Of a stretch of DNA of 64,000 nucleotides, positions 1-48,262 are shown in pieces. Numbering within the stretch: the stretch's first letter is position 1; each line of letters opens with the position of its first letter. The notes beneath the pieces are model-generated. The model saw nothing but the letters and a program-made list of their open reading frames with translations, did no database searches and was not told the DNA's origin. A program made the translations under genes and the position numbers. This stretch comes from Ceratodon purpureus (Eukaryota; Streptophyta; Bryopsida; Pseudoditrichales; Ditrichaceae): NCBI GenBank assembly GCA_014871385.1, contig CM026427.1, positions 11,966,430 to 12,030,429 on the forward strand. Direction: 5' to 3'.

Positions 1-325
1 CGGCATAATGCCTCGGTGCCGAGCACTCTTCCAAGGGGCCTTGACTTTGGTGACTGTTTGCTTTAATTTCAATGCATTTAGCTCCCTCTGAAGCAGCCGT
101 GAAGCCCCCGGCATAATGCCTCGGTGCCGAGCACTTCGCTATGGGGCCCTGTCCTTGGTGAATGCTTGCTTTGGTTTCAATGCATTTAGCGATCCTCGAA
201 GCAGCCGTGAAGCCCCCGGCATGATGCCTCGGTGCCGAGTACTCTTCTGAGGGGCCCTGTCTTTGGTCAATGTTTGGTTTTATGTCAATGCATTTAGCGC
301 CTCCTATGGCAGCCGTGAAGCCCCC
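1..325 (+). repeat. 108-bp minisatellite, array 1 (about 3 units)
   Basis: About three copies of a 108-bp unit run up to the first visible exon of the methylase-like gene. Each unit holds two adjacent palindromes, GGCATAATGCC and CTCGGTGCCGAG, and a pyrimidine-rich stretch beginning GCATTTAGCTCCCTCTGAAG. The array begins at the window edge and so probably extends further left. Confidence 0.9.
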
Positions 326-338
326 AGCATTTTCCCAG

Positions 339-3300
339 GAATGGTTATTAATTACGTTGCTGGGGTTGTACAGCACGAGATCAGCAGAGCAGCGGACGAG
401 GGGCTTCGTGCTTACCTGGAGAATGCCGAAGGCGATGTTGCTGAGAAGGATAAAGCTGCTGCTATGAAGCTCGCTGCAGCAAAGAAGACGGACAACCTCA
501 TGAAGAAAATGAACAAAGTTAGTTGCGGTGGCTAACCCGGAGCTGACACCGGGATTTTTGAAAGAGGTATCGTTACACTTCCTTCAAATCGCCTCTGCTG
601 ATAGTATACCAATCTCCGCGTTTAGAACTATCCTAATTATGCTATACTGATATTGCTGTCGGGACAGATTGAGCGGCACTACTCGCTGAGCGGCACGACG
701 GGCGTCGAGTTGAACCTTGAGAAGCTTCAACTCATAGCAACGGCGAAGGCATCTCCAGCCGCGAAAATAAGATGGCTCGAATTATTCAACTCCTCCGTAG
801 CCACAAGAGAGGCCCGATGCCTACCACCTAAACCATGCAACGAGCAAAGGCTAACCCACTGGCTGGCAAGGGCGTGCTACTGGGCTGCGGTGAGTCATTC
901 CTCTGTAATCTACCTTAAGCTAACCTGAATTTCAGATTTTCAGTTATTCTTTGCTATTTCCTACTCCAGCATATAACGCATGCCTGTTTCGGCTTTCAGC
1001 TGAGTGAGGAAGCATCCGCCTCTCTGGACGATATACTCCGGTCGGACCGAATTCCAATGAACATGAACGTGCCAACAGAGCCCATGAATTTGGAATCGTA
1101 TGTGGAGGATTGTAGAATGAAACTGTTTGACCATGCCTTCTTGTCGTATTTCAAAGGGACTGACGCTTTCACCAAGACAAACGACTTCAAGGAATACAAG
1201 GGGTCCGACTTAGTGGTTCGAAGAGTCCTTTTCAGGTATGTGTTTTGCTTCTGTCCACGGTTGGTTTCGACGGTTGCAGCGGCCTCTGAAGCAGCAATGA
1301 AGCATCTGGCATAATGCCTCGGTGCCAAGCACTCAACTTCGGGGCCTCTACTCATGCCTTTTTATGCTTTTATTTCAATGAGTTTGTAGCCCTCTGAAGG
1401 AGCCGTGAGGCACCTGGCGATATGCCTCACTGCCGAGCACTCCTGCAAGAGGCCCTGTCTTTGGTGATGTTTGCTTTAATTACAATGCTTTTCGCGCCAC
1501 CTGAAGCAGCCATGAAGCCCCCGGCATTATGCCTTGGTGCCGAGCACTTCCCGAAGGGGCCCTGTCTTTGGTGACTGTTTGCTTTAATTTCAAAGCATTT
1601 AGCTCCCTCTGAAGCAGCCGTGAAGCCCCCCGCATTATGCCTTGGTGCCGAGCACTTCCCGAAGGGACCCAAGCTTTGGTGATTGTTTGCTTTAATTTCA
1701 ATGCATATAACGCCACCTGAAGTAGCCATGAAGCACCTGGCATTATGCCTCGGTGCCGAGCACTTCCCGAGGGGGCTTTGTCTTTGGTGAATGTTTGCTT
1801 TAATTTCAATGCATTTAGCGCCCCTTGAAGTAGCCGTGAAGCCCCCGGCATTAAGCCTTGGTGCCGAGCACTTCCCGAGGGGGCCCTGTCTTTGGTGTCT
1901 GTTTGCTTTAATTTCAATGCATTTAGCGCCTTCTGAAGTAGCCATGAAGCACCTGCAATTATGCCTCGGTGCCGAGCACTTCCCGAGGGGGCCCTAGCTT
2001 TGGTGATTGTTTGCTTTAATTTCAATGCATATTGCGCCACCTGAAGTAGCCATGAAGCACCTAGCATTATGCCTCGGTGCCGAGCACTTCACTAAGGGGC
2101 CCTCTCTTTGATGAGTAGTTGCTTTTAATTTCAGGCAGTAAGCTCCATCTGAAGCAGCCGTGAAGCCTTCGGCATTAAGCCTCGGGGCCGAGCACTATTT
2201 TAAGGGGGCTTCTCATTGGTGATTGTTTGCTTTAATTTCAATGCATTCTTTTCCTGTGTTTAATATGCGTTGATTGATGTCCCTTTTGATCATATGCTTT
2301 GCAGGTATTTCAAGTACGAGCTTCTGGCCAAAGGGGCAATCTCGAAGGAAAATCTCCCTATTTTTCTCCAAGCTTGGGTAGATCGCTCGAGTCCGAGCTG
2401 TATGTTTTCTGCTGCTCAGCAACGCACTTGGACCACAGCGCACCTCATTGCAGGTGCTTGGTACTTAGATTGCCTCTCTAACTTCACACCGTCATTCGAA
2501 GTTGAGCTCAGGAAGTCACGAGACTCCGTAGGAGAATCTGGGGCTGAGATGCAAGACCTTCTGGGGATCGAAGACGAGGCCGAGAGGGCGAAGGCCTTAA
2601 AGCGCCGGGTTGAGGAGGATCGCAGGAAGGCACAGAAGGTCAAGGAGGCCGAGGAGAAGGCGCTTCAGAGGGAGGAGGAGAAGCAGCAGAAAGCCATGGA
2701 GAAGAGTTCGAAGAAAGGGAAGAAGAAAGTGAAGTCTCCCGGCGGGGAAGTTGGAATAAGTCCTATAAGCAATTCGGGCTCACAGGCACCTCCAAACTCG
2801 AGGGGCACAAAACGAACGGTGGACTCTACTTATGAAGAAGCACTGACTCAGGTCCCTAACATTAACGTAGGTGATGAGGAGGGGAGCAACAACCGCGAGG
2901 TCATCATCAATTCCTCACTAAAGGATGTCCTCGCGGGATCCTCTGATAACTTCACCCAAGCGTACCTCGACGTCAAGAGCTTCTTGCTTAAGGTACTTTC
3001 AAATAGCAATTAGTTATTTCTTGGATAATATTAGAGTGCACATGGAAATGATGGCAAGGGGTGCTACGTCGATGTACTCTGAAGAAATTCTGTTTTGAAC
3101 CCGGGAATCTGGACTCAGCTTTGACTTCGTATTGATGATTATATCGCTTGAAATTCTGCAGCAGTCCGAAGGGAGATCCCTGCGCTTCAGAGGCGAGCCG
3201 AAGGTGCATCCATTTGTGGATCTCATCATCGCAGACATTCCGGAGGGACTTCCGGTGCCAGGAATTTCCGATCCTCCCACATCAATTCCCTCCTGGAATG

Positions 3301-6300
3301 TTGACACCGATAACTGCTTGCAGCCCATTTTCGATTTTGCCGACAACCATTTGCAGGATGATGGGGCAGTCATATTATTCCACCCCTTTCGTGCCTCAAC
3401 AAAGGGTGAGATCTTCGGGTACTGCGATGCTTTTGAGTTCGAAGTTTGGAAAGAGTGGTGGGGGACCAATAAGCTTCACCTCACATCTCCCATCAATCCT
3501 TCACTAACTGTAAGTTCTCTTCCCGTAGCCTATGCGTCACCCCCCTAGAGTACTTTACATGATCATGGACTTTCTCATTTTGTTGCAACAATGTTATTTG
3601 CGGTCGAGAAGGTTTTACTCTAAGTTGGACATGTTCGACAGACAATGAAGTTCGGAATTCTACTTGCTGTGAGGAGCTTCAAGTCCGGAGGTCGGAAATC
3701 CCGGTTCTCCTTTCGCCAGGTGCCTGCTCTGGAGCGCCTTGGATACGATGTTGGTCGGGATGATGTCCTGCAGAATCACGTTTCCCGCGACAACCAGCTG
3801 ATGAACGCCTCAAGGCCCTGGCGCGGCCCTCGCGAGAAGTCCGTTCCCCTTTTACAGATGCTGATCGAGGCCACGACCGACCCTGGAGACGTGGTGCTTG
3901 ACTGCACGACTTCGACAGGTAAGCTATTATCTGCATTGTGGTATCGCCCTTTGCATTTAGCTCCCTCGGAAGCAGCCGTGAAGCCCCCGGCACTATGCCT
4001 CGGTGCCAAGCACTCTTCTAGGGGGCCTTGTCTTTGGTGAATGTTAATTTTTACTTCACTGCATTTGGGTCCCTCTGAAGCAGCCGAGAAGCACCTGGCA
4101 TTATGCCTCTGTGCCGACCACTTCTCTTAGAGGCCCTGGCTTTGCTGTATGTTAATTTTTATTTCAATGCATTTCGCTCCCTCTGAGGCAGCCGTGAAGC
4201 CCCCGGCATTATGCCTCGGTGCCGAGCACTCTTCTAAGGGGCCTTGTCTTTGCTGTATGTTAATTTTTATTTCAATGCATTTAGCTCCCTCTGAGGCAGC
4301 CGTGAAGCCCCCGGCATTATGCCTCGGTGCCGAGCACTCTTCTAAGGGGCCTTGTCTTTGGTGAATGTTAATTTTTACTTCATTGCATTTAGCTCCCTCT
4401 GAAGCAGCCGAGAAGCACCTGGCATTATGCCTCTGTGCCGAGCACTTCTCTTAGAGGCCTTGGCTTTGCTGTATGTTAGTTTTTATTTCAATGCATTTCG
4501 CTCCCTCTGAGGCAGCCGTGAAGCCCCCGGCATTATGCCTCGGTGCCGAGCACTCTTCTAAGGGGCCTTATCTTTGGTGAATGTTAATTTTTACTTCATT
4601 GCATTTAGCTCCCTCTGAAGCAGCCGAGAAGCACCTGGCGTTATGCCTCGGTGCCGAGCACTCTTCTAAGGGGCCTTGTCTTTGCTGTATGTTAATTTGT
4701 ATTTCAATGCATTTAGCTCCCTCTGAGGCAGCCGTGAAGCCCCCGGCATTATGCCTCGGTGCTGAGCACTCTTCTAAGGGGCCTTATCTTTGGTGAATGT
4801 TAATTTTTACTTCATTGCATTTAGCTCTCTCTGAAGCAGCCGAGAAGCACCTGGCATTATGCCTCTGTGCCGAGCACTTCTCTTAGAGGCCTTGGCTTTG
4901 CTGTATGTTAATTTTTATTTCAATGCATTTCGCTCCCTCTGAGGCAGCCGTGAAGCCCCCGGCATTATGCCTCGGTGCCGAGCACTCTTCTAAGGGGCCT
5001 TATCTTTGGTGAATGTTAATTTTTACTTCATTGCATTTAGCTCCCTCTGAAGCAGCCGAGAAGCACCTGGCGTTATGCCTCGGTGCCGAGCAGTCTTCTA
5101 AGGGGCCTTGTCTTTGCTGTATGTTAATTTGTATTTCAATGCATTTAGCTCCCTCTGAGGCAGCCGTGAAGCCCCCGGCATTATGCCTCGGTGCCGAGCA
5201 CTCTTCTAAGGGTCCTTGTCTTTGCTGTATGTTAATTTTTATTTCAATGCATTTAGCTCCCTCTGAGGCAGCCATGAAGCCCCCGGCATTATGCCTCGGT
5301 GCCGAGCACTCTTCTAAGGGGCCTTGTCTATGGTGACTGTTCGCTTTCATTTCAATGCATTTAGCTCCCTCTGAGGCAGCCGTGAAGCCCCCGGCATTAT
5401 GCCTCGGTGCCGAGCACTCTTCTAAGGGGCCTTGTCTTTGGTGAATGTTAATTTTTACTTCATTGCATTTAGGTCCTTCTGAAGCATCCGTGAAGGACCG
5501 GGCATAATGCCTCGGTGCCGAGCACTCTTCCAAGGGGCCTTGACTTTGGTGACTGTTTGCTTTTACTTCATTGCATTTAGCTCCCTCTGAAGCAGCCAAG
5601 AAGCACCTGGCATAATGCCTCGGTGCGAGGCACTCCTCTTAAAGGGCCCTGACCTTGGTCAATGTTTGCTTTAATTTCTATGCCTTTAGCGCCACCTGAA
5701 GTAGCGATGAAGCACCTGGCACAGTGCCTCGGTGCCGAGCACTCCTGTCAGGGGCCCTGTCTTTGGTGAATGTTTGCTTCTATTACATTGCATTTGGCCC
5801 TATCTGAAGCAGTCTTGAAGCACCTGTAAGAAAGCGTCGGTGCGGAGTATTGATGACCTTGCACTCTTTCTCAGGTTCGTCAATTCACGCTTGCCGACAT
5901 GCTGATCGGCATATTGTTGCATTGGAGGCCGACAACGACATCTTTGCAGCTGTATTGAAACCTCTTATTCGATCTACAGCTGCCCCGAATGTCGCTACCG
6001 GAAGACTGGTCACTAGTGAGGATCCCGATGGAGAAGTGACTGTGACAAAGGTTGCGAAGAGATCCCGGTTTACTACGTGAGTTTAGAAACTTGTTTATTA
6101 ATGTTACATACTCTTTATAATATGATTTGCTATGGACCGGATTTATGAAAAATGTGCCATTTATATTTGCAGATGCGGCATTATGAGTACTTCAATGAGT
6201 CTTCCTTTTTTTTGTCATCCCCACTTTTACCCAAGCCCCCCAAAATCATGGCATCTCCCCAGTTATGCGAACGATGCAGCTATTCAACTAGCTCGTGGCA

Positions 6301-6500
6301 ACCACCGTACCTTTCAGTCCAGAAACCCCCCCAGTAGGACTCTGGAATTTATCGATAGCGAAGCTGTGGAGTCTGACGGTGAGGCTCCTTCCGAGGCCTT
6401 CAGTAGTCCATCTAGTGTGACCACCTCATCATCCGAACTGACAGACTCTAGCGTCACTCTGTTCAGTACAGATCCTAGCGACTCCAATCATGTAGTATAG
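339..6500 (+). CDS. DNA-methylase-like protein (N4/N6 beta-class fold), 5' end probably outside the window
   Basis: Eight exons can be chained: 339-517, 668-889, 1000-1235, 2305-2992, 3165-3509, 3642-3918, 5875-6076 and 6173-6500 (stop TAG). All junctions are GT-AG and every phase agrees, giving 824 residues from the ATG at 341; exon 1 may continue an upstream exon, since the window starts inside a repeat-filled intron. A K/E-rich, probably coiled-coil stretch lies at about residues 300-360. Exons 5-7 resemble N-4/N-6 site-specific DNA methylases in beta order. A motif IV-like strand comes first (DLIIADIPEG, about residue 465). Next come target-recognition-like sequence and a motif I-like loop (GDVVLDCTTSTG, about 640), and then a strand ending in an acidic residue (HIVALEADND). 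The usual (D/S)PP(Y/W) catalytic motif and FxGxG loop are both altered, so catalysis is doubtful although the frame is open. The Ser/Thr-rich C-terminus is not recognised. Substrate is unknown. Confidence 0.72.
1262..2255 (+). repeat. 108-bp minisatellite, array 2 (about 9 units)
   Basis: Around nine diverged 108-bp units fill nearly all of the intron between the exons ending at 1235 and starting at 2305. Units differ by scattered substitutions and small length changes. The paired palindromes are kept in most copies. Confidence 0.92.
3945..5835 (+). repeat. 108-bp minisatellite, array 3 with 432-bp higher-order period
   Basis: About 17-18 units of 108 bp fill the intron between exons ending at 3918 and starting at 5875. 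Variant units recur every four units: near-identical blocks begin at about 4149, 4581 and 5013, a 432-bp step. This shows local amplification of a four-unit block. Because 108 is divisible by three and stops are rare, long open frames occur in both directions (for example 5000-5599 on the minus strand). I regard these as by-products of the repeat. Confidence 0.93.
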
Positions 6501-7090
6501 GACCCTTAGTCGCGTGATTAGCTTTGTCTTCAGGTAATCCATATCGTATTTGTATTTGCTTCCCATTATCACTTTTCGATTACTCAGAACTCGCAATAAA
6601 TATATTTATAGTAAGGGACGGCTCATATGCAACGTTGCTGCTAAGGGCCCTAGCACATGGCAAACTACACGATAAAATTAGCACATGATAACAATACAAA
6701 CGCATGAGTCTTGAACACCGAGGGATTATGCCGAGTGCTTCACGCTTGCTTCAATGGACTGTATTACTAACAACTAAAATACATTCGTTCACCAGACTGG
6801 TAGCCCCCAGGAAGAGTACCCGGCACCGAGGCATTATGGCAAGTGCTTCTGGTTGCATCGGAGGGAGCTACAAACATCGAAAATGAAATATGCGTTGACC
6901 ACAGTAAGAGCCCCTTGATAGAGAGGTTGTCACCGTAGGGGTAGACGATGCGATTCACACCGAAAATAAAAACACATTTTATTTACATCCTTGGTAATAC
7001 TTCAGAAACGTACACATATCCTCCAAGATCAACATGACCATCTTCGATTCTAAACAGTTCAACCACTCAACAGTCCTTGCGGAAGTGAGC
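6501..7090. other. Intergenic region with degenerate inverted minisatellite units
   Basis: No gene is seen. At about 6705-6760 and 6820-6880 there are degenerate pieces of the 108-bp unit in minus orientation (accgag, ggattatgcc, then gcttca), opposite to the arrays inside the upstream gene. The rest is ordinary low-complexity intergenic sequence. Confidence 0.6.
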
Positions 7091-7744
7091 CTAACCTAGA
7101 TTTACGAGGGTCAATCCTGAGTATTGCGATAAAGCCCCTGTGATTGAGTTAGTGGATTCCCAGGACAAACCCGCTCTGCTCCAATTTGTCACTGTTCTAG
7201 TGGAGTTGTTAGGTCCAATGAGGGAGTCTACAACTGAGAAGACCATAAGGTTTGCGTAGTCATCGTGGAGGTACTTTTCTTTCCAGAAATCTGCACGCAA
7301 GAATGTCGGACCAGAAGGCATACTCGGCTGCGTAAATGCCAGGACAATAGTATTCTGGTCGGGGACGGTTCCTCCGCGTCCAAGACCAATCACTTGTGCC
7401 GGTCCGGGGTCTTGTGCCTCCGGAATAAGTATTCCTCCGGTCATCGCCCCCTTGAATCCAAGCCCGTACTCCCAAACCATAAGCATCATGCACTTCATGT
7501 TCCGAGGGAGATCACTTCTACGATCACTATCTAAAGCATAAAGAACCGACGCCGGGAAGATCTTCAGCAGCCATGCCTTATGATACTGATTCCACTGTTC
7601 CGGAGACTTGTATGGGTAGTACCGGATGATGGAATTCGCCTGCCTTCTACGTATAACTATATCTCCAACTTGCGGTTCCAGCATTGTCCCAAGGTTGAGC
7701 AAGAATTGTGATTCAGAGTGGAGGCTAAACATGAGAGGAGACAT
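7091..7744 (-). CDS. Orphan ORF, 217 aa, function unknown
   Basis: An uninterrupted 217-codon frame runs from ATG at 7744 to the stop at 7091-7093. The composition is protein-like, with mixed hydrophobic and polar residues and no repeats. I see no signal peptide, membrane helix or motif I can name. A Trp/Tyr-rich part lies near residues 35-60 (YKSPEQWNQYHKAW) and an acidic segment (DFWKEKYLHDDYANL) near 150. It may be a single-exon gene or one exon of a longer one; no convincing acceptor stands just upstream of the ATG. It sits between inverted copies of the 108-bp minisatellite, next to the methylase-like gene and in the opposite direction. Coding status rests only on frame length and composition. 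Confidence 0.45.
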   Translation of the reverse strand: MSPLMFSLHSESQFLLNLGTMLEPQVGDIVIRRRQANSIIRYYPYKSPEQWNQYHKAWLLKIFPASVLYALDSDRRSDLPRNMKCMMLMVWEYGLGFKGAMTGGILIPEAQDPGPAQVIGLGRGGTVPDQNTIVLAFTQPSMPSGPTFLRADFWKEKYLHDDYANLMVFSVVDSLIGPNNSTRTVTNWSRAGLSWESTNSITGALSQYSGLTLVNLG

Positions 7745-8690
7745 AGTTAGGAGGCAGAAAATGATGATATACTATCCGCCTTAGAATGAAATCAGCATTC
7801 AGGTGTTTTGAGACAAGCGTGTTCTTCTTGCACCTGATATATGATGCAGTCTACCGTCAATCTCACGCCAAGGCAGCCCCGATATCCCCTTGATATTCAG
7901 GATTGTCTGTCCAGGTTTGTAACCGTAGATCCGCGTTTCTTAATGGTACACAGCCTCCGAGTCTAGTCTCCGGCGGGCAAATTCTAAATGGTCCGCTGCA
8001 TTATTCGATATAGTGTTAAGAACACATGATATGGCGCCGGCGCCATCACGGCCCAATTTACTTTCACACGAAAATGTCAGCTCTTGATACTCCAGCACGG
8101 AACAGTACAGTTCAGGTGGCCTTTATTAGGGACGAATCCGAAATTCTGTATGAGGCTCGACAAGAGTGCGGGCATTAAGAACGGACCCCATGAACAAAGT
8201 ATGAATGGCGCAGCAACGCATTAGAATTGACTAATATGGTTAGTGAACGAACGATGGAAAAATGGAAACGACCCAATCTTAACAGTTTTATTTTCCCCAT
8301 TTTTATTTAGGATTGTAATTGAATAGTTAATGCAAGACCTATGACCTCAAATACCACAGACTAGGCTGATGCGTTCAAATAATAAATTGAATTCGGGAGA
8401 CTCAGAAAATCTTGAATAGAATTACCAATCCACTGCATTTACATGATCTTCTAATTCAAATCCAATTTAATAATGATACAAGTATCTAAGATCTATTACT
8501 GATCTTCAATGAATCCTCGCCCTTTTTTCTGTGGTTAGAATTTATATTCGTAATAGATATTTCACCAGATACATACAACCACGGCATACACGGCATACAG
8601 TGTCATGATACATCTCACATACACTCACATGCTACACAGCACGTAGACCCGAAGGATGCATATGACATACGCACACATCAGCCACATCAC
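7745..8690. other. Intergenic, no gene seen
   Basis: AT-rich sequence with no supported ORF. A small cluster of CATACA/CACATAC-type simple sequence lies around 8575-8690. Confidence 0.5.
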
Positions 8691-8699
8691 ATGGACTCA

Positions 8700-8850
8700 A
8701 ACGATGCACCAAGGCATCATGCCTGGTGCTTCACGGCTGCTTCAGAGGGCGCTAAATGCATTGTAATAAAAGCAAATGGTCACCAAAGAGAGGGCTCTGG
8801 TTCGAACCCGGAGAGCCCTCAGCAGGGGTCCTCGGCACCGAGGCATTATG
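8700..8850 (-). repeat. 108-bp minisatellite unit, inverted, with a strong hairpin
   Basis: One to one and a half units in minus orientation relative to the arrays at 1-5835. At 8791-8819 AGGGCTCT is followed by the self-complementary GGTTCGAACC, then CGG and AGAGCCCT, forming a nearly perfect hairpin. The core resembles a tRNA T-arm/B-box, but no other tRNA parts are visible. Confidence 0.7.
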
Positions 8851-9815
8851 CGAATTCAAAGTAAATACCTGCAGTTGCTCGCAGTCTTTTGACCTCTCTT
8901 TTCACCTAGACCGTACACATTTTTAGATTTATAAATACTTTATAATATGAGGATTACCCTTAACCAACCCATTTGTTGCGAAAATGGAAGTTCAGAAACT
9001 ATTGTTCATAGAAACTGTGGTTCTTACAGAGGTCTCTTTCTAGAGACTTATCGCTTATGAATTCATAAATCAAGAGTCTAATTTAAATCTTATTTATCCT
9101 TTATTCCTCTTGTTTGGCCATGACATACACTCAGATGATACACATCACGTCCATCCACCCTAAACCAGATTACCTACCTTCAAGTATGTTACATTTTAAC
9201 TGAAGTCACATAATCATTTAATATGTCATATTATTTTCTTTCTTTCATGTCTTATTCTCTTTCCCCTTTGTCGTAAATGTTTTTAAACTTATTCTATTTC
9301 TTTCTGAAATTGTTTTTCTCTTCATGATTATTTGATTTTTATTTTAATTCCCTTTCTTTTTTATTTTAAATGGTATACGACTCATTTGTTTTTTTTTTTT
9401 TGGGAGACAGAACCCACTAAGTCATATCCTAAATTTGAATCACAGAATCTCCACTCTCACAGGCCTGCTCTATAATTTAAGTTTGTTCTTTAAGATGAAG
9501 TTGCTTAATTATATCCATGCAGCCTTGACATGAAGGAATCTTATTTGCAACCGCAGTAATTTTAATTTTTGTTTTAACCCATGCAGTCACACTAATTAAC
9601 GCAACCACACTAATATTTGCTTGAAGTAATCAGCACTTACCCTGCTGTCGAGGCCGCAGCACTTCAAACTGTTGAGAGCAAATTATTAACCACATTATTA
9701 ACTCGCAAACCGCTTTATTAACTCGCAAACCACATTATTAACTCGCAACCCAAACCACATTATCCCGTAAGCATTGGCCTAACCGGACTTTACTTCGATA
9801 TAACCAAACCTGCAA
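8840..9815 (+). repeat. Tandem segmental duplication, copy A
   Basis: About 976 bp beginning in minisatellite (aggcattatgcgaattc) and ending at the shared block near aaccaaacctgc. It is nearly identical to 10051-11035 and offset by about 1211 bp. No coding potential is evident. Small local duplications (attaactcgcaaaccacatt) distinguish copy A. Confidence 0.9.
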
Positions 9816-9827
9816 CAGACTTCTAAG

Positions 9828-10050
9828 AGAAGTGCTCCGCACCGAGGCAAATGCCGGGGGCTTCAAGGCTGCTTCAGAGGGAGCTAAATGCATTAAAATT
9901 AAAGCAAGTATTCACCAAAGACAGGGCCCCTTACTGAAGTGCTCGGCACCGAGGCATAATGCCGGGGGCTTCACGGCTGCTTCAGAGGGAACTAAATGCA
10001 TTGAAATATAAGCAAACAGTCACCAAAGAGAGGACTCTGGTTCGAACCCG
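9828..10050 (-). repeat. 108-bp minisatellite units (about 2) between the duplicated blocks
   Basis: Two inverted units separate copies A and B. The second ends in the same ggttcgaacccgga core seen at 8799 but lacks the outer hairpin arm. This suggests recombination or deletion at this point. Confidence 0.8.
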
Positions 10051-11035
10051 GAGGCATTGTGCGAATTCAAAGTAAATACCTGCAGTTGCTCGCAGTCTTT
10101 TTACCTCTCTTTTCACCTAGACCGTACACATTTTTAGATTTATAAATACTTTATTATATGAGGATTACCCTTAACCAACCCATTTGTTGCGAAAATGGAA
10201 GTTCAGAAACTATTGTTCATAGAAACTGTGGTTCTTACAGAGGTCTCTTTCTAGAGACTTATCGCTTATGAATTCATAAATCAAGAGTCTAATTTAAATC
10301 TTATTTATCCTTTATTCCTCTTGTTTGGCCATGACATACACTCAGATGATACACATCACGTCCATCCACCCTAAACCAGATTACCTACCTTCAGGTATGT
10401 TACATTTTAACTGAAGTCACATAATCATTTAATATATTATATTCTTTTCTTTCTTTCATGCCTTATTCTTTTTCCCCTTTGTCGTAAATGTTTTTAAACT
10501 TATTCTATTTCTTTCTGAAATTGTTTTTCTCTTCATGATTATTTGATTTTTATTTTAATTCCCTTTCTTTTTTATTTTAAATGGTATACGACTTATTTGT
10601 TTTTTTTTTTCTGGGAGACAGAACCCACTAAGTCATATCCTAAATTTGAATCACAGAATCTCCACTCTCACAGGCCTGCTCTATAATTTAAGTTTGTTCT
10701 TTAAGATGAAGTTGCTTAATTATATCCATGCAGTCTTGACATGAAGGAATCTTATTTACAACCACAGTAATTTTATTTTTATTTTTAACCCATGCAGTCA
10801 CACTAGTTACCTAAACCACAGTATTTATTTTTATTTTTTAACCCATGCAGTCACACTAAATAATGCAATCGCACTAATTTTTGCTTGAAGTAGTCAGCAC
10901 TTACCCTGCTGTCGAGGCCGCAGCACTTCAAACTGTTGAGAGCAAATTATTAACCTCATTATTAACTCGCAAGCCGCATTATCCCATAAGCATTGGCTTA
11001 ACCGGATTTTACTTCAATATAACCAAACCTGCGAC
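10051..11035 (+). repeat. Tandem segmental duplication, copy B
   Basis: Partner of 8840-9815 in the same orientation, ending at aaacctgcgaca. It carries an extra internal repeat of about 50 bp around 10800-10850 (acccatgcagtcacac repeated) absent from copy A. There is no ORF. Confidence 0.9.
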
Positions 11036-13402
11036 ATTATAATCTCGTCACTTGGGCAGTGGCTTCGGTGTGTTATACTTCTCGAGAGAAAGCAATGGAC
11101 GTCGTACCTCGCAAAGGATAATCGCCGGGGCCATTCCCAAACTGACATAAACAAATTCAAATCGGATAAAAGAAAAAATCTAATACAAGGAAATCTGCAG
11201 TTGCTGAGCAGTCTTTTTATCTCTCTTTCTACCTAGACCTTATAATAATAATAGACTCAGCGACTAAATTAAAATCCTTTCTAATAATGGAACAATTCCT
11301 AGTAGTCTAATAGTGATGAACAATTTATCCTTTGTCTCTCTTACATGGCTATACTTTATATTGATATTAGACTTACTTTATTTTGATAATAGACTTAGAT
11401 ACTAAGCAAAGGATAATACTCTATTCATAAAAAATTCCTGAATAATCTGATAGTCTTGATTACCTTAATCTGTATCCATGCATGCACGGGAATAGGCACG
11501 CACGGTGATAGGCGTTTTTAAGGTCATACTTTTTGAAAATAAAAATAAAAATCAAACCAACATGCTGCAGTTATAGAGTGTGAGAAACTTCACCAAAAAC
11601 ATCAAAATATCCGCAAAGTTACCGCTCACCGCTCTTCGCTCACCGCTCAAGGCTCGCAGAATAGCATTTCCCACAGCAGTGGGCACACGGTCGGTGACAG
11701 TGTCATTACTGCTTGTATTGTCCAATGGGGGGGTGGGGTGGGGTGGGGTGGGGAAGGTAAGCGATTGGCTGGACCCCCTAAATGCCAACTGCTGGCACTG
11801 CTGGCAGCATTTGGCGACCTACTGGCACCATTGGTGCGAGTAGGTAAAGTGCACGGGCATGGCAAAAATTCAGGTACAGAAAACATGGAAAAGGCCCGTT
11901 GGAGACCCCAAACTTCCCCTAATGCTTGAGTTGATAACATAAGGAGAGAACAAAAAAAGGTTCAGAGTAACTCACCGGAGATTTGAAGTAGTCCTTGCCT
12001 GAGTTCGTCAACTGAAAGAGAGGCGGTTGCAGCCGCAGTAGAATTCTATGAAGGCTAAGTTGACAGTTCCATGTTGGATTAGAGAACAAGAAAGTATCAA
12101 AACCAAATTTTTGAGAAGCGACGAAATACAACTTAATTGAGATGATTGAATTTTTCTTGGGGGGGGGGGGGGGGGGGGGGGGGGGGTGATGCAGGCGGTG
12201 GAGCAAGTTTAACTGAAACCAACGCGGCCGACGAACAAGGTGAGTAGCCAGCTGCACCAACTCCCTCGGTGAAGAGCTTTAGTTGTATGCACAGGTGCTA
12301 ACCACTCACATTTTATAACACAAAGGAAAAAAAAAAAAAAAAAAAAACAAAGGTGAGCCATTCTGCTCACATATGGCCGCATGCAAGCGGAGAAACATTC
12401 TCACCTGCAAGGCGTGGCGAAGTCGAAGGTCAGAGACCCTTGTCGTCTCGACTTTGATTCGGAGCCTACAATGCATGCATGAGTAGCATTAGATTAGCTG
12501 AATCAAAAAATAAAATTATAACAGCAGTAGTACTTACAAGAAGGAACAATCTGCCATGAAGTTGAACCATCATTATCACATCTTTCCGCAGATCATCAAG
12601 GCATAGGTTGTGTGGTGATAGGAAAAAAGAAAAAAACACTAACCAGACAACTGTGCGGGGATCTGTAGGTGGTGAACAGCACTTACCTGGAAGGCGGAGA
12701 GAACTCAAAGGTAATACTCCCTAATCTGATATGTTCCTGCAGAAAGGCTACTCTCGATGAGCAAGCACTAATTGCAAAGGAGAACTAAGTAGTAGAAAAA
12801 AAAATTAAAATACAACAAACTATAGAATTGTAGGAAAGGGGGGAACAACAAGGCTGTATACTGACCTTGTCTGCTCGACAATCCAAAGTTGACAATAAAA
12901 CCGACCTTCATGTTGGCTGCTGCTCCACTCCTTTGTTCTGCAAGCACTCGACTATAAAGGAAAATAAAAAACTAGAAATCAAACAGAGAGAAAACGCTAA
13001 TAGGAATTTGTGAGGGGGGGGGGGGGGGGGTGGAGGTGTATACAAGCGGTGAGCAGCAGATATGTGCAGGTCGGCGAAGCTTTAATGATGGTGAGTCACT
13101 TCGGCACACCTCTCTTCATGCTCCGAAACCTGCAACCATGCACTAGTTACAGTAGAAGTTAGAGAAGAAAATAAAAGGAAAAAAAATGTTAATTGGAATT
13201 TGTGAGGGGGAGTGGGGGGTGTTTACAGGCAAGGAGCAGCACCCACAATGTCGCCTTATGGCCTTGGTGAGCAAGCTTGCACAGTTTTCAAACCTCACTT
13301 GCAAGCCGCAGCTACGCTGTAGAATTTCAGGGCAACCAGAGGCCACTAAAACAGTAGAAAAAAAAATCACACATAAGAAAATTTAAGTTTGTTAAATACG
13401 CC
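11036..13402. other. Non-coding region with G-tracts, poly-A and degenerate ~190-bp repeats
   Basis: No gene is supported. G28 lies at 12159-12186, G17 at 13014-13030 and a ~20-bp A-tract at 12327-12347. Blocks near 12140-12245, 12990-13100 and 13180-13270 share an order: AT-rich lead, ggaatttgtgagg or G-tract, a gcaggcggtgagcag-like motif, then gtgag. They look like diverged tandem copies. Confidence 0.55.
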
Positions 13403-13900: not shown

Positions 13901-15579
13901 GTTGCGAGAAGAGTACCTGGTCGAAATAGGTGCGGAGGAGGCCGTGGGAGCCTAGCTGCAACAGAGGGCGGAGTTGATGCTCTCAAAAATCTCCTCACTG
14001 TTGGAGGCGCGGTAGTGCTGGACGGGCACGTCCCACCTTCACAGAGTGTAGCCGAACAAGGTGGCGCTCTCGCAGGCGGGGGTGGGGCGGGACCGGGTGT
14101 GAACAGGGGAGCGCTTCGGCGGCCAATCCCGGAGCCCTATGCCTGTAGGCCGTTCGGAACGGAGGGGCACTGGACTTGACAGCCGCCCAACATCCACCGC
14201 CCTTCACAACCGTAGGCTACACAGCCCCGCGGCACCAACCCAACTCCCACGCAACACTCGAGGGTCGCTTCGAGGCCAATGTACTCTACGGTGAATTGCC
14301 GCTCGGTGGCCGCCCTCCTTTCCCGCCTTCTACTGCTCCCAATTGTTGGTCCAGACCTTCACCATCGGCTTCACATCCTCCACATGCACATCTCGACGTG
14401 TCCCTCTCCAACGTCAGTTGCTTACTGCTGATGCAAGGTTTTCAGACAGGTCGTTACAACCTTCAACAATTAAGCGGATTCTTTGCTCACGCACAAAACT
14501 CATTATCACGCCAGCAGAGGGAGGACATTAGGACCATGGGGCAGAGGGAGCTCAACGACGGTGAGGGGTTGCAATCCTCACTAGATCTGTGGTGAGGTGC
14601 AGGGAGATGGGCGGGAGATGGGCGAGAGTGGGGCGCGTCAAAGAGCGGCAGGGGGAGCACATGGACGTTGGAGTCAAACGTCCTCTGACAGGACAGCGGA
14701 CCGGCCATGGAGGGCCGCGACTATAGCCCCGCAGATTTAGGATCTGGGTGCCGCGCTAGCGGAGTTTGAATGAAAAGGTCGCCTTTTACCTTATCACCAT
14801 GGACGGTTTGGGGGTGCCAGCTGCTCTGAGTAGCACCACCATTTGGAATAGGTTGGGGTGTCCACAGTAGTCTGAATATAGAGCAAGTGCATGCTACGCC
14901 AGCTTGCAAGGGACAGCCCACCAAGGCATTGGGGTCGGTTTTGCTCTTGAGCCACATATTTTGGAGTACTTTGTAAGACTGTTTTAGTGCCCAAGCATGG
15001 GCTTGTTTTGGACCGGTTTTGGATCATTCACTACCTCTTTTTAAATTGTTTTCAAGGCATTCACTGCACAATATCTAGAGCCCACCCTCCTAAGAAAGGC
15101 ACTACTCTCTGGTCGGGCAGTGGCCACTCTAGGTCTCAATTTTTATAAATTTCTAGAAAATTAAATACGTTACCAAATTTTTTATTCTTTTTGGGATGGA
15201 CATGCACTACCTATGCAGACCATTCAAATATTCCATATTTTCTCAACCACTATTTTAAGTATGCAGATTTGAAATTTGGTCGGTTTTCAGATCCCTTATC
15301 CTAAGAGCCCTTGAAATGACCCCACGACTCTCAAAAAGAAGCTATCAAAATGGTGAGCCATTTCCATTTCCTTTGGGCCATCTTAGGCCATTTAAAGCTC
15401 ATGCATCAATCAAGGGTGAGCACGTTGAGAATCAAAATGGCCTCTCCTTGGCCTTGCAACCCCATAGCCCCCACATGTACTCTAAACAGGGCCTTAATAC
15501 CAACTTCACAACATTCCTTCCAAGCTTAGACTCTATTGATTTCAGTCTTAGTTTGTATTATTAAACATGGATGAATTTT
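13901..15579. other. Intergenic, GC-richer then AT-rich, no supported gene
   Basis: 14000-14720 is GC-rich and holds open frames on both strands, for example 14176-14595. They show no recognisable domain and a Pro/His-rich composition typical of chance frames. 14720-15579 shows nothing. Confidence 0.45.
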
Positions 15580-15583
15580 TTAA

Positions 15584-16512
15584 CCCCTAAAGGTTCTGGA
15601 AATCCAAAATGGCTCTCGGCTGTTTCGGGCAGCCTAGATGAAGGGGTTAAAAGTAATATTTTTGCCTAAGAATTTTACTGGATGCTCCTTATACCACAAA
15701 GTGTATGTGGTAAAATTTTCAAAGCCAAATTTCACTTTTAGAACCTTCATCTAGAAATTTTAGGTTTCAAGTCCAAAACGGGCAGTTTAAAATTAGGTTT
15801 TTTTAGATTTTTTTTTTGGAAATGTGTTCATAACCAATTCACTACTCAAAATCCAAAGTGGTCTAAGTCAAAAAGTTCACCAATTTTACAAGGGCAGCCT
15901 CCAAAAATTACAAAAACAACCTTCAAAGTTTTTGGTATTTTTTACAAATTTTTCTTTCAAAATTTGTCAAAATTTGAGATTTAGGAATTTTTAAATTTTT
16001 TTTTCCCAATAATTTAAAAAACTCAAGGAATTAACTTTAAACCGTTCACTTTTTAAAAAAACTAAAAGCATTTCACGTCATTTAAGTTTTACCATATTGT
16101 AGTTTTTGTACCTTCTTCAAGAAAATAATTTGCATGAAAGCCAAGAAAGTGTAATGAGACTCTAAAATTTTGCATGGAGGTGCTCAACTTAGTTACCTAC
16201 TTAGAAAAAAATATGAGCAAAATGTTTGAGGTAACAGTAATCAAGTCTCCCTTGGCACCATTTAGAGTATGCCTTTTGTGCAAAGAAAAAAAAAACAAAC
16301 AGTAAACTTTGAATGCTATAATCTCACAAAAGGTAAAGATCCAACCGTTGAAATTTGACATGCTATTAGTGCAGGTAGTTAGGTTTAAGATCTTACGGTT
16401 GGATGTATCAAAAATTAAAAAAAATTAAGAATCATGCTTCAACTTCTACAAGGTTGTCAAAAATCACAGTTTTTGGTCTTGGAGGTCCAAAAACGGCTTG
16501 AACCTTTAGGGG
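15584..16512 (+). mobile_element. TTAA-flanked non-autonomous DNA element, copy 1 (929 bp)
   Basis: The ends are inverted CCCCTAAAGGTTC and GAACCTTTAGGGG, directly bounded by TTAA at 15580-15583 and 16513-16516. The interior has no coding frame. It is nearly identical to the copy at 26871-27801 in the opposite orientation. TTAA on both sides with CCC-starting ends is what piggyBac-type transposition leaves. A PIF/Harbinger-type TTA/TAA duplication is the main alternative. Confidence 0.85.
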
Positions 16513-23147: not shown

Positions 23148-26055
23148 CTCCCTTTGTCCCACTAAAAGACTGTTGTTTGCTAATAATATCGGATTTAAGG
23201 GCAATTCTATTTCTGATTTTCCAGAACCGTGTCATTAGCCTTAAACAATAATTTGGCCAAATTTAGAAAACAAGTTTGCCAAATTTAAAAATAAGTTGGC
23301 CAAATTTAAAAACAAGTTGGCCTCAAGCTCCCTTTTCGGGGTAATTAAAAAGTCAACCAAGAAACAAGCCTCAGGGGAAAACACCCCGAGGAATGGCAGA
23401 GGGAACGCCTAGCCAGACCCAAACAGGTCGAACCAATCATCACTCGTGTGACAGGCCACGCAAAGTAGAGGTTAAACAGAAACTGCCTAACTAAAAACTA
23501 ACTAGCCTAACCACCTAGCTAAACCCAGAGAAACTCCAGGGGAAACTAAAGGAAAGTCGAATCAAAGTGAAACTGAAAACGGAAACCTTCAAACGGTCAC
23601 AACCGACCACAGTGAAGACTCAAGGCAAAGGCACTGCCTACAAGAGAAAACACTAACGCGGGGACCCTAAGAAAAGGATCTGACACTAAGTCATGGCCCA
23701 GAAATCCGCCTGAGCTTGAAGCTCCGTGGGATCCTGGAGATCATCCGGGAGATCAAGCCCCGGTGTATCCAAAGCGACCTCGGAATTGATTTCGCCTTGA
23801 ATGTCTGTCATAATTTGGAGGATTATGTCTTCTGCCATCCTTTCCGCATGGGAAAGGGCCAATGCCGCAGGCAAAGCAGACGCTTGAGCGGGAGGGGAAG
23901 ACTCCCTTGGTGCAGAGGGAACCTCCGACTCCGACATGGATCTATACCCTTGGTCCTCCTCAAGTGGGGCTCCATTCCTGAATATCCTTGTAGAAGAAAA
24001 CCTGTTAGAGAGTTCTTGCGAGAGAAATTCATGATTGGGCGTGGGCTTCCACCGAGGGTTACCCACATCATTGGCACAGAATAAATTTCCTTGCGACCAG
24101 ATATGAAGGAACACTTCCTGCATCGCAAAGTGTTTCGCTGGTGACCGCTTCTTCCTGAACTTTTGCAGTTCCTTCAAAGCAGCCATTCCTACCTGCACAG
24201 TAGTTTGCCACGCCTTGAATATCGCTACTCTGAGGTGGAAGATCCCAGAATGGAGATCATGCTCAATATGTTGGCACCAAATGTACCACAATAGACAGCA
24301 CCGCAAGATGTAGAATGGTGTCTCGTCATTAATTTTGCATTTTTGACCCGCGTCCCACAGATGGTCTTCCTCCAACGTGTTTCGACGACCTGGGGGGAGG
24401 GGACGCCCAATGTCCCCATAGAGAGCTTCATCCCAGTTCCGAATCCCTGGCTGTCTTCTCGCTAAAGTGTGCAGGCGCCGAAGGTTGGTCCACGCCGCCT
24501 TAACTGCCTCGCATCCAAACAGCGCATGTTCACTCATCTGCAGGACACCAAGGTTGCATAAAGTGCAAATCCCTGAGTGCCCTATGCACTTACGCCTCCA
24601 AGCTCCAATCGGGAGTCCCTCCGCTATGGTTAACCAAACCATACTCGAAATCTTGCGGGGGATCCAATTGTGCCACAGTTTTGAGAAGAATTCTTGTTTC
24701 TGTCCAAAGCTGTATCCACTGGATTCCAGCCAGCAATCAAAGCCTAATTGTCTATATTGACTCTTAAGGATGATCCGATAATCCCTTTTACAGGAGTACC
24801 CTAAGAAATGAGTCTTCTTAAGGGCCCCCTCTCGCGGCCAAGACCATTCTTTCGGGTCAAAGGTTAAGTCCTTGACTTTACCACTTCTGAATGCCCACAT
24901 CGCATATCCCGAGACCTGGCCTCCCTTTGGGTTGAAGGCTATCACCTCGCCCGTGGCTGATCTCATGAGCACTTGTGCTTCACAAAACCTGTACTGTAGT
25001 AGGGGTACAGGATCCTCCGAGGTCCTCTGAAGTTGCTCCGAGCCTGGGAGGAATCCGTAAGCATCCGCCATCCAATGATCGTCCACAAAGGCTCTGAGAA
25101 AATAAATCTCCTTCTCTATCCAGTAGGGAGCATCGAGTATAACCCAATCCCCCTTCTCAAGCTCCTTAAGAGCCCTAAGATCCCATGAGCTAAGGGCTCT
25201 GATAACTTCAGAGTGTAGCATAACGATGTTCGATGACCGAGTCCGTCTGCTGAGGAGCTGAACATCGATAAAACGATTCCTGTCCAGGTCCCAGAAATCT
25301 CCCACTGTCTGCACGCCTTTAACAGACCAATTGCGGTAACGCAAGTTCTTCTCCACTCCAAACGGGTGACCTGCTTGCCGAAGGATTTCTGGTTTAAGAT
25401 ACAAGTGTTGTCAAAGCTTCTCATCCCTCGTAACCGCTGGTCCCTTCTTGCCTCCTCCCCTCACTGAGACCCACGCTGCCCAAATCGCCTTCCACAAAGG
25501 GGAACCATCCGGCTTGACCCGAACTGCTGTAAATAGCCAGTGCTTGCTAGGTCCCTAATCACCGTTACGGCGGTACTGCAACTGCTTCATTCTGGGTCGC
25601 AACAACGTCTTCCAAGGCTCATTTCCTGGTGCTAATGCCCTAACTAACATCTTCGCCATAAGTGCCCTTGCTTGCGCGTAAGGGTCAAAAATCTTCAATC
25701 CTCCCTTTATGGTTGGGATCACCGCCGTGTCCCACGCCACCTTCGCCCTAACCCTTTTATCTAGAGTGCCTCCCCACACAAAGTTTCTCACCAACAAACG
25801 CACCTTCAAGAGGACACTCTTACTGATATTGCAACAAGACGCTAAGTACCATATGCTGGCCAGGATCACTTGGTTAGAAACTAGGACCCTAGTTGCGAGG
25901 GACAACTTCTTCCCTGTCCAGAGGTTCAACTTCGAACGGATCTGGAAAAGTACCTTGGCGTCTTTAAAAACAAGTTGGCCAAATTCATGAACAAAGATCT
26001 TATTTAGGGGCAGATTTTTTGAGCAAACAACGGTCTTTTAGTGGGACAAAGGGAG
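23148..26055. mobile_element. Stowaway-like (Tc1/mariner) MITE, split by a LINE
   Basis: Inverted ends of about 34 bp: CTCCCTTTGTCCCACTAAAA onward at 23148-23181 and its complement at 26022-26055, one mismatch seen. TA is duplicated at 23146-23147 and 26056-26057. The CTCCCTYYGTCCCA start with TA target site is the Stowaway signature. Removing the LINE and one copy of its target duplication leaves a MITE of about 250 bp, a normal size. Its interior has short repeated phrases of the ttggccaaatttaaaaa type. Confidence 0.9.
23323..25962 (-). mobile_element. 5'-truncated LINE (plant L1-type), ORF2 C-terminal part
   Basis: Flanked by an 18-bp perfect target duplication TTTAAAAACAAGTTGGCC at 23305-23322 and 25963-25980. 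One minus-strand frame runs from about 25960 to the stop at 23686-23688. It begins in the region after the reverse transcriptase (KLNLWTGKKLSLATRV), then carries the RVT zinc-binding domain (about 24450-24720, with CTLCNLG and HALFGC) and a long tail. Two in-frame stops interrupt it (25555-25557 TAG and 25411-25413 TGA). The RT catalytic core is missing by 5' truncation. About 360 bp of 3' UTR follow. No clear poly-A tail is seen next to the duplication. Confidence 0.9.
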
Positions 26056-26870: not shown

Positions 26871-27801
26871 CCCCTAAAGGTTCAAGCCGTTTTTGGGCCT
26901 CCAAAACCAGAAACTGTGATTTTTGACAACCTTGTAGAAGTTGAAGTATAATTCTTGATTTTTTACCTTTTTGATACATCCAACCGTAAGATCTCAAACC
27001 TTACTACCTGCACTAATACCATGTCAAATTTCAACGGTTGGATCTTTACCATTTGTGAGATTATAACGTTCAAAGTTTACTGTTTTTTTTCTTTTTTTGG
27101 CTTTGCGCAAAAGACATACTCTAAATGGTGCCAAGGGAGACTTGATTATTGTTACCTCAAACATTTTGCTCATATTTTTTTCCACGTAGGTAACTAAGTT
27201 GGGCACCTCCATGCAAAATTTTAGAGTCTCATTACACTTTTTTGGCCTTCATGCAAATTATTTTCGAGAAGAAGGTACAAAAACCACAATCTGGTAAAAC
27301 TTAAATGACGTGAAATGCTTTTGGTTTTTTAAAAAAGTAAACAGTCAAAAGTTACTTCCGTGAGTTTTTGAATTTTCGGAAAAAAAAAATTTGAAAAATT
27401 CCTAAATCTCAAATTTTGACAAATTTTGAAAGAAAAAATTGTAAAATTACCAAAAACTGTGAAGGTTGTTTCTGTGATTTTTGGAGGCTGCCCTTGTAAA
27501 ATTGGTAAGTTTTTTTACTTAGGCCACTTTGGATTTTGAGTAGTGAATTGGTTATGAACACATTTCCAAAAAAACAATTCTAAAAAACCTAATTTTAAAC
27601 TGCCCGTTTTGGACTTGAAACCTAAAATTTCTAGATGAAGGTTCTAAAAGTGAAATTTGGCTTTGAAAATTTTACCACATACACTTTGCGGTATAAGGAG
27701 CATCCAGTAAAATTCTTAGGCAAAAATATTACTTTTAACCCCTTCATCTAGGCTGCCCGAAACAGCCGAGAGCCATTTTGGATTTCCAGAACCTTTAGGG
27801 G
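26871..27801 (-). mobile_element. TTAA-flanked non-autonomous DNA element, copy 2 (931 bp)
   Basis: CCCCTAAAGGTTC inverted ends bounded by TTAA at 26867-26870 and 27802-27805. It is nearly identical over its length to 15584-16512 but inverted, so the two copies are recent relatives about 10 kb apart. There is no coding frame. Confidence 0.87.
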
Positions 27802-28553
27802 TTAAGAATTATTCTTCTGAAATATTTGTACATGTGGGGCACTTATGTTAGAATGTTATGCAATTTGTGGATTGATACACCAATTCTTGTTAGAATTATG
27901 ACATGATCTTTATTAGAAAAATAGCCTATACACCAAACTATGAAACAAACCTTGAGTAGCATATCTGCACAATAGATTAATATTTTGTTAATAATATTGG
28001 GAAACACCGTACTTGCATGGCCAGTTCAGCAGAAATTAAGTCTGTTTTTAATGTGCCAAAAAATCCATAATTTAAAAAAAAATTAAAAAAATCATATTGG
28101 TACTCAAAAAAACCGGAATCACAACGAAATTAGGATTGCCAAACTCAAAAACTTAAAATTGATTAATTATTCAGCACTAAGGTAGAGGGTACTAAAAGCG
28201 TGCATTTAAGCGATTCAGGTGTGTACATTATTCCAAAAAATGGGACAAAAATCTGAAGCAGTTGCAAGAGGAAGACCAATTGTTCCACATTGTGCGCATA
28301 AAATTCAGAGCACCAAATCTATAATGAAAAATCATCGAAGTGATGGTAAAAACAACCCCCCTACATGTGCCCTGACGATGCTAATTGTGCGTAATTAGAA
28401 ATACTATATCGACCTGACAGATGATCAAATCCGCCCATGCCGCTACCCTACACCGTGGAGCCACTTGATGCATGCACACATCGTGACCTGGAAATTTGGC
28501 CATCTGTGGACCCTGCTACTGAACATGGTGCTATCCGTTCTCCCCGCTTCCGT

Positions 28554-46908: not shown

Positions 46909-48252
46909 TCACTTCTTCTTGGCAGCGGCCTTGGTCACCTTGGCACCAGTCGCGTCCTTCTTCTCCACAGCCTTGATCACTCCCACAGCCACCGTCTGCC
47001 TCATGTCACGCACGGCGAAACGACCCAAAGGTGGGTACTCAGCGAAAGTCTCCACCGTCATCGGCTTGGTCGGAATCATCTTCACGAAACCAGCGTCACC
47101 GTTCTTCAGGAACTTGGGCTCCTTCTCCAGCTCCTTACCCGATCGCCTGTCAACCTTGGTCAAGATCTCGGCAAACTTCACAGCGATGTGAGAAGTGTGG
47201 CAATCCAGCACCGGGGCGTACCCGTTACCGATCTGTCCGGGGTGGTTCATGATGATAACCTGAGCGGTGAAGTTGGCGGCCTCCTTCGCGGGATCGTTCT
47301 TAGAGTCAGAAGCAACGAACCCTCTCTTCAGGTCCTTCACCGCCACGTTCTTAACGTTGAATCCCACGTTGTCACCGGGGTGGGCCTCGGGCATGGACTC
47401 GTGGTGCATCTCCACAGACTTCACCTCCGTGGTCAGTCCAGTGGGGGCGAAGCACACTAACATACCGGGCTTGATCACACCAGTCTCCACACGTCCCACA
47501 GGCACAGTTCCAATGCCTCCAATCTTGTATACGTCCTGAAGGGGCAACCGGAGGGGCTTGTCGGACGGCCTCTTGGGCTCCGTAACGGCGTCCAGAGCCT
47601 CCAACAGAGTAGGGCCCTTGTACCAGTCCAGGTTCGACGACCTCTCAATCATGTTGTCACCCTCGAACCCAGAGATGGGCACGAACGGGATCTTGTCGGG
47701 GTTGTATCCCACCTTCTTCAGGTAGGAGGACACCTCCTTCGTGATCTCCTCGAAACGGGCCTTGCTGTACTTCGGGGTGGTCGCGTCCATCTTGTTGCAG
47801 CAGCAGATCATCTGCTTCACTCCCAAAGTGAAAGCCAACAAAGCGTGCTCACGGGTCTGCCCATCCTTCGAGATACCGGCCTCAAAACCTCCGGTCGTCG
47901 AGTCGATGATCAGCACGGCGCAATCGGCCTGAGAAGTTCCCGTAATCATGTTCTTGATGAAATCACGATGTCCGGGGGCATCAATGACGGTGCAGTAGTA
48001 CTTCACCGTCTCGAACTTCCACAACGCGATATCGATGGTAATACCACGCTCACGCTCAGCCTTCAGCTTGTCCAACACCCACGCGTACTTGAAGGAACGC
48101 TTGTTCATCTCAGCCGCCTCCTTCTCGAAACGCTCGATCACACGCTTGTCAATACCACCCAACTTATAGATCAAGTGTCCGGTGGTCGTCGACTTTCCGG
48201 AGTCGACATGGCCGATGACCACAATGTTGATATGTACCTTCTCCTTACCCAT
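46909..48252 (-). CDS. EEF1A: Translation elongation factor 1-alpha
   Basis: A single uninterrupted coding exon of 447 residues, the standard plant length. All GTPase motifs are present: GHVDSGKST (14-22), DAPGHRDF (about 91-98) and NKMD (about 153-156). Domains 2 and 3 follow ([49 protein letters not shown]), with the basic [10 protein letters not shown] end. The protein carries aminoacyl-tRNA to the ribosome as a GTP complex in the cytosol. Codons are strongly C/G-ending, as expected for a very highly expressed gene and unlike its AT-rich surroundings. A 5'UTR intron and TATA-like box lie upstream. The frame is intact. Confidence 0.98.
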
Positions 48253-48262
48253 CTTGAATAGT

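Follow-up and report, generated by a model that had tools for sequence, protein, structure and literature searches.

The stretch of Ceratodon purpureus DNA analysed here (contig CM026427.1 of assembly GCA_014871385.1, forward-strand positions 11,966,430 to 12,030,429; hereafter the window, 64,000 nucleotides long, in whose coordinates negative numbers lie before its first letter) carries at its left end a multi-exon gene for a methylase-like protein, with a convergent open reading frame (ORF) of 226 aa beyond it and a satellite of about 108 bp filling its introns. In the DNA preceding the window lie a transposase-like gene and a 180-aa ORF, both on the opposite strand. We find that these features belong together and that the methylase-like gene is almost certainly an accessory gene carried by a DNA transposon, large (26.2 kb) and apparently active in recent times, which runs from about -14509 to 11672 as judged against a copy on contig C11 (Table 1).

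The ends of the element were taken as the limits of homology between the C11 copy and the window with its upstream DNA (L041, L044). Perfect 10-bp target duplications flank all three copies that were read at both ends, namely the window copy, the C11 copy (CTCGTCGGTT) and a copy on C2 (GATGATCCTC), and the two ends have in common a subterminal inverted stretch, imperfect and about 60 bp long; the element therefore shows the target-site duplication and defined ends that mark a DNA transposon. When the product of exons 5, 6 and 7 was compared by tblastn with the moss's own genome (362 Mb in 151 contigs), at least 205 exon-level matches were obtained with the best 150 of 3303 candidates scored, and among the matches listed copies occur on all contigs from C1 to C13, on C9 only through a subfamily of 66% identity. 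A single upstream exon of the gene gave at least 151 matches (best 150 of 1857 candidates scored), which implies a copy number well above one hundred, decayed copies included, and queries with 336 aa of the 733-aa transposase-like ORF and with the 226-aa ORF gave at least 167 and at least 151 matches, respectively. Four of six near copies among the matches listed are 97.0-98.1% identical to the window in DNA over 2.3-3.4 kb, introns included. At 47 window-type methylase loci drawn from the exon-5/6/7 search, where partner counts are lower bounds, the upstream domain accompanies the methylase-like gene at 41 or more, the transposase ORF, on the opposite strand to it, at 36 or more, the 226-aa ORF at 34 or more, and all three at 28 or more.

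Table 1. Features of the transposon in window coordinates
Feature	Position	Strand	Remarks
Transposon, right part	1..11672	.	left 14.5 kb precede the window start; extent from homology with the C11 copy
Right 10-bp target-site duplication, ACAGCAGTGG	11673..11682	.	left copy at -14519 to -14510
Transposase-like gene, two long ORFs	-13291 to -11834 (486 aa); -11170 to -8972 (733 aa)	-	
180-aa ORF	-8572 to -8033	-	between transposase-like and methylase-like genes
Methylase-like gene, exons	341-517, 668-889, 1000-1235, 2305-2992, 3162-3509, 3642-3918, 5875-6076, 6173-6500	+	GT-AG joins; more exons upstream of the window
Motif IV exon (DLIIADIPEGLPVPG)	3162..3509	+	motif IV region, ADIPEG
Target region, WRGPREKS (motif X-like), motif I LDCTTSTG then ALEAD	3642..6076 (exons 3642-3918, 5875-6076)	+	
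Convergent ORF	7091-7771 (226-aa open frame); 7091..7744 (217 aa from ATG)	-	
End of ~108-bp satellite array	1..331	+	continues upstream; inferred intron before exon 341
~108-bp satellite array, intron 3	1283..2247	+	
~108-bp satellite array, intron 6	3952..5847	+	17 cores; six sister copies have an intron of 81 bp
About two ~108-bp satellite units, reversed	9829..10033	-	

The eight exons of the methylase-like gene that lie in the window are separated by GT-AG introns throughout and form a single open frame of 2478 nt, or 826 codons with the stop; the preliminary description of this DNA had given 825 for its eight-exon chain closing in phase, which is the count obtained when exon 5 is begun at 3165 instead of 3162 at a CAG/CAG acceptor. 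The ATG at 341 is not the start of the gene: homologous exons that belong to it are found before the first letter of the window, between about -2210 and -1300. An exon of 316 aa that precedes a sister-clade methylase (L063) proved to be related to the segment from -2090 to -1300 of the window's element (identities of 45% over 166 aa and 33% over 72 aa, E 1e-52), which falls within exons open from about -2210, and seven of the weakest near-full-length matches to the upstream exon (48-50% identity) were seen by eye to sit 4.2-5.5 kb upstream of sister-clade methylases. Splice edges were compared with ten other copies, one of which (L059) gave none: the edges of intron 4 are GT/AG in 9/9 copies and those of intron 6 in 6/6 readable ones, and intron 5 has an AG acceptor in 9/9 and a GT donor in 8/9, L021 being the exception. 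The edges thus stay while intron lengths differ widely among copies, intron 5 measuring 132 bp in the window copy against 309-1208 bp in eight sister copies and intron 6 measuring 1956 bp against 81 bp in six.

Several lines of evidence support the prediction that the product has the fold of beta-class N6/N4 DNA methylases. The profile check against N6_N4_Mtase that the preliminary description had proposed gave a match of PF01555 to residues 614-674 of the 825-aa product at 26.8 bits against a cut-off of 26.7, and this is the only Pfam model above its cut-off for the window product; eight of nine family members match it at E values up to 1. A profile built from the nine members matches solved methylases in the PDB (5hfj and 5hek, E 1e-9; CcrM 6pbd, E 6e-7), with D-x-P-x sitting on DPPY and D-x4-TG on DPFMGSG. 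Both 5hfj and 5hek bear the PDB name DpnA, and we take them to be M1.HpyAVI, a beta-class N6-adenine methylase. The residue alignment to these three structures bears out the domain order that had been read from the sequence, in which motif IV is followed by the target region and then by motif I, a motif X-like stretch standing before motif I as in the solved enzymes, and the hexamers ADIPEG and CTTSTG pointed out earlier are both present and align with motif IV and motif I, respectively. Unlike the beta-class enzymes, however, the moss proteins have D-[IVQT]-P-[EKFY] in place of DPPY and D-x-[TSNA]-x-[SA]-T-G in place of DPFMGSG, and they have extra N-terminal regions, introns and carriage by a transposon.

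Because the same changes recur from locus to locus, the alteration of the motifs is a property of the whole sampled family. An alignment-based reading of motif IV covers 45 distinct loci (48 rows; L001, L050 and L051 were merged, as were L003 and L055, and L006 and L007 were unreadable), in which the motif is DIPE in 28, DQPF in seven, DVPE in six, DIPK in two, and DQPY and DTPF in one each. The aspartate and the third-position proline are constant in 45/45, proline never occupies position 2, and the canonical catalytic motif [DNS]PP[YFW] occurs in 0/45. Position 4 is non-aromatic (E or K) in 36 of these loci and F or Y in the other nine, which form the sister clade. Motif I could be compared across 34 distinct loci (39 rows before overlaps were merged); the FxGxG loop for S-adenosylmethionine (SAM) is found in 0/34, its first glycine being replaced by S or A, and the motif ends in T-G in 33 of the 34 and in T-S in L047. 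Sister-clade members L002, L004 and L008 and the related L001 are 28-32% identical to the window's methylase; at another sister-clade locus, L005, the methylase has upstream of it, on the opposite strand, a relative of the transposase that is full-length and in its core shares 49% identity with the window's (one locus). Ten of the 32 PF01555 matches in the genome were read (L001-L008, L046 and L047), and all ten belong to the methylase-like family. A more distant multi-copy clade of methylase-like ORFs (L046, L047, L057, L058 and L060) has DVPE and no intron between motifs IV and I. A scan of viral contigs with the family profile gave 12 pattern matches, none of them a relative.

The methylase-like protein is the most constrained among the element genes tested. 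Ratios of nonsynonymous to synonymous substitution rates (dN/dS) were calculated pairwise by the NG86 method, and the window copy was compared with five sister copies (L017, L021, L031, L034 and L036) over all four exons (496-501 codons), giving dS of 0.41-0.43, dN of 0.033-0.035 and a dN/dS of 0.08-0.09; five partial comparisons gave 0.06-0.08, and no ratio was computable against L059. For the two transposase ORFs, dN/dS against one copy at C11:1.32 Mb was 0.12 (dS 0.33) and 0.16 (dS 0.15), and for the 226-aa ORF against the same copy it was 0.33 (dS 0.17). The comparison across relatives that had been suggested for this gene therefore reveals strong constraint, about 0.08 between subfamilies, which fits a retained, possibly changed function and suggests that the protein is needed by the element. 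In line with this, the earlier view of a maintained gene holds for the protein family, but the locus itself is one copy of a dispersed repeat with an in-frame stop upstream.

The name transposase-like for the gene at the far end of the element reflects its movement together with the element and a pattern, recognized by eye in its ORFs (FDHVRRV, FMADGAQANWNAV, CLFHW, CNLAESIHNRW and CTC...CKH), that resembles that of Mutator transposases. Its arrangement of D..D..C-x2-H..E and CxC-xn-CxH, again by eye, is like that of Mutator-like elements (MULEs). Target duplications of MULEs are 8-11 bp long, and the 10-bp duplication found here fits. Membership was nevertheless rejected, as the MULE and SWIM profiles give no match for the transposase: neither ORF matches any Pfam model at E up to 5, four transposase core sequences gave one Pfam match only, at chance level (E 0.042), and the window's element is absent from the 93 PF10551 and 2 PF04434 genome matches listed (best 150 of 384 and 150 of 452 candidates). 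An hhalign comparison of the transposase with two of the genome's own MULE proteins gave a probability of 0.7% (two-row template). The KDZ model PF18758 was unmatched both in the element's transposase and in the genome, where the control models of the scan were likewise unmatched. Pfam gave no match for the 226-aa ORF either, for which structure prediction gave a pLDDT of 32 and no usable fold.

A search of the 84 kb between -19999 and 64000 for the 24-bp core of the satellite (GGCATTATGCCTCGGTGCCGAGCA), allowing as many as 5 mismatches, gave 84 occurrences, of which 84/84 are inside the element; 77 of these cores have plus-strand orientation and fall in introns, known or inferred, of the methylase-like gene, and of those on the minus strand four lie between the two transposase ORFs and three near the 226-aa ORF. 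Cores in introns run in the sense direction of their gene (77 + 4 of 84). In 55 units that were cut, of about 77 expected, core columns are 94.6% conserved against 76.0% elsewhere in the unit, the best-conserved stretch of 24 columns (94.8%) being shifted by one or two columns from the core, which contains two small inverted repeats, GGCAT-T-ATGCC and TCGG-TG-CCGA. The satellite is present in L017, L019, L031, L037 and L061 and thus, given where it is missing (see below), characterizes the window's subfamily together with its near relatives but not the family as a whole. When four satellite sequences of 108 nt (three sense, one antisense) were folded as RNA, the result was unconvincing (z -0.77 to -2.14), and an Rfam search of positions 1-12000 gave no match.

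What might such a protein do for its transposon? The reading that we prefer, although we would put it slightly short of an even chance, is that of an accessory protein that binds DNA and SAM and helps transposition or counters silencing, with catalysis altered in the window's clade. Through its methylase fold and its N-terminal region such a protein would bind DNA, and probably SAM as well, on behalf of the element; it would recognize the element's own sequence and thereby aid transposition or protect against silencing. Proteins of the window's clade (DIPE, DVPE or DIPK) lack the aromatic residue that stacks on the flipped base, and their methylation of bases has for this reason probably been lost or changed, while in the sister clade (DQPF, DQPY or DTPF) catalysis may survive. 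A number of observations weigh against our account of the element and its protein. The second upstream exon of the window copy has an in-frame stop where the C11 and C5 copies are open, for which reason the window's own copy may be inactive. At least one of the three partners is missing from 19 of the 47 window-type loci, among the matches listed, and no satellite was seen in eight loci of sister or distant groups (L063 and L071 of the sister clade, and L046, L057, L058, L059, L069 and L070). With regard to selection, the six near-identical copies differ by very few changes and give dN/dS values of 0.10-0.79, the transposase and the 226-aa ORF have a single comparator, and dS is unequal between genes (0.33, 0.15 and 0.17 against about 0.42 for the methylase-like gene). 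A ParB/Srx-like label for the upstream exons, suggested by a DGNHRxxAW motif, was dropped after profile searches gave no match, and the role in transposition or anti-silencing is one that we infer by analogy.

Alternatively, the protein could be a working methyltransferase with an unusual active site, one that makes N4-methylcytosine (4mC) or N6-methyladenine (6mA) in the DNA of the element itself, which would be marked or shielded in this way. The sequence retains much that an enzyme would need, namely the aspartate and proline of motif IV, the aspartate and T-G of motif I, RG-x2-EK and a motif II-like acid, and the dN/dS of 0.08 and the F or Y kept at position 4 in the sister clade (9/45 loci) point the same way; but position 2 of motif IV is never proline, E or K has replaced the aromatic residue in 36/45 loci, and the first glycine of the SAM loop is S or A, so that we regard this as unlikely, if a serious contender. 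Somewhat less probable in our judgement is a protein that serves as a subunit of the transposition machinery, in end binding or complex assembly, and has no epigenetic part. Its frequent co-occurrence with the transposase and the strong constraint on it are what such a subunit would show, and nothing speaks directly against one, although the fold makes a role in modifying DNA or reading its modification at least as natural.

Two further explanations would remove the protein from the life of the element. Plant transposons often carry gene fragments, and the in-frame stop upstream in the window copy might suggest a host gene that was captured as a passenger and has drifted without a role; the lowest dN/dS among the element genes tested, however, and the pairing with a transposase in each of two clades, between which methylase identity is 28-32%, make this very improbable. 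The preliminary description had read the locus as one maintained gene of the host that was repurposed from an enzyme resembling DN4MT. An open exon chain and conserved splice sites would be expected of such a gene, but copy number and element ends contradict it: there are many dispersed copies within one element with target duplications, and all ten of the PF01555 matches that were read, out of 32, fall in the methylase-like family. We therefore consider a host gene scarcely credible. That description was right about the methylase fold and its altered catalytic signature, but it missed the transposon setting, the family-wide nature of the alteration and the start of the gene outside the window.

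Bacterial-type amino-methylases in eukaryotes include the N4CMT of bdelloid rotifers, which keeps a catalytic SPPY and loses its activity when this is changed to APPA (PMC8885841), and a 4mC methylase of Marchantia (PMC12344493). Both are host genes, unlike the transposon cargo with altered motifs described here, in which the loss of the aromatic residue in 36/45 loci suggests altered catalysis in the window's clade. By analogy, the nearest working parallel to the element is the VANDAL transposons of Arabidopsis, in which an extra protein, VANC, lifts silencing from the transposon that encodes it by binding tandem repeats in its non-coding parts (PMC10398659). There too a DNA transposon carries an additional gene and has tandem repeats outside its coding sequence, and the satellite with its short core gives the moss element the same trait; unlike VANC, which the sections consulted do not describe as having a methylase fold, the window product matches PF01555, and repeat binding would here be hypothetical. 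Fungal DNA transposons, KDZ among them, encode TET/JBP dioxygenases, and SET genes too are carried by DNA transposons (PMC12730594); the fungal elements share with the moss element a gene of DNA-modification type aboard a DNA transposon and differ in enzyme and in transposase. A bolder reading, improbable as we judge it, is that of an undescribed superfamily of large plant DNA transposons in which the gene conserved best is that of a non-canonical protein with a methylase fold; in the window's subfamily this protein would recognize the intron satellite and mark or shield the element against silencing by the host's cytosine methylation.

The remainder of the window holds further features. A Pogo/Tc5-like transposase in pieces (29462-31444, minus strand; HTH_psq, HTH_Tnp_Tc5 and DDE_1) is probably part of another transposon. 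Long inverted repeats of 444 and 360 nt, 90-91% complementary and about 11 kb apart (15577-16299 and 27087-27808), are perhaps the ends of yet another element, with a zf-RVT ORF between them (23686-25410). Two syntaxin-like genes form an inverted pair (53177-54768, minus strand, and 58356-60270, plus strand), each in two open pieces, with Pfam applied to one piece of each, and an elongation factor 1-alpha reading frame of 459 aa is open at 46909-48288 on the minus strand.

Transposons that carry DNA-modification genes are already known; this one differs in its enzyme, in the altered active site and in a transposase without a convincing Pfam match. A literature search that covered few subscription papers or preprints listed no publication that describes the element by its title or the start of its abstract. 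Transposons that carry DNA-modifying or anti-silencing proteins reveal how mobile DNA evades the control of its host, and a multi-copy moss transposon with its own satellite, in which the most constrained gene tested encodes a methylase-fold protein with a consistently altered active site, would offer a plant system in which this can be tested. Moreover, genes annotated as 'DNA methylase N-4/N-6' in such genomes may be genes of transposons and not epigenetic enzymes of the host.

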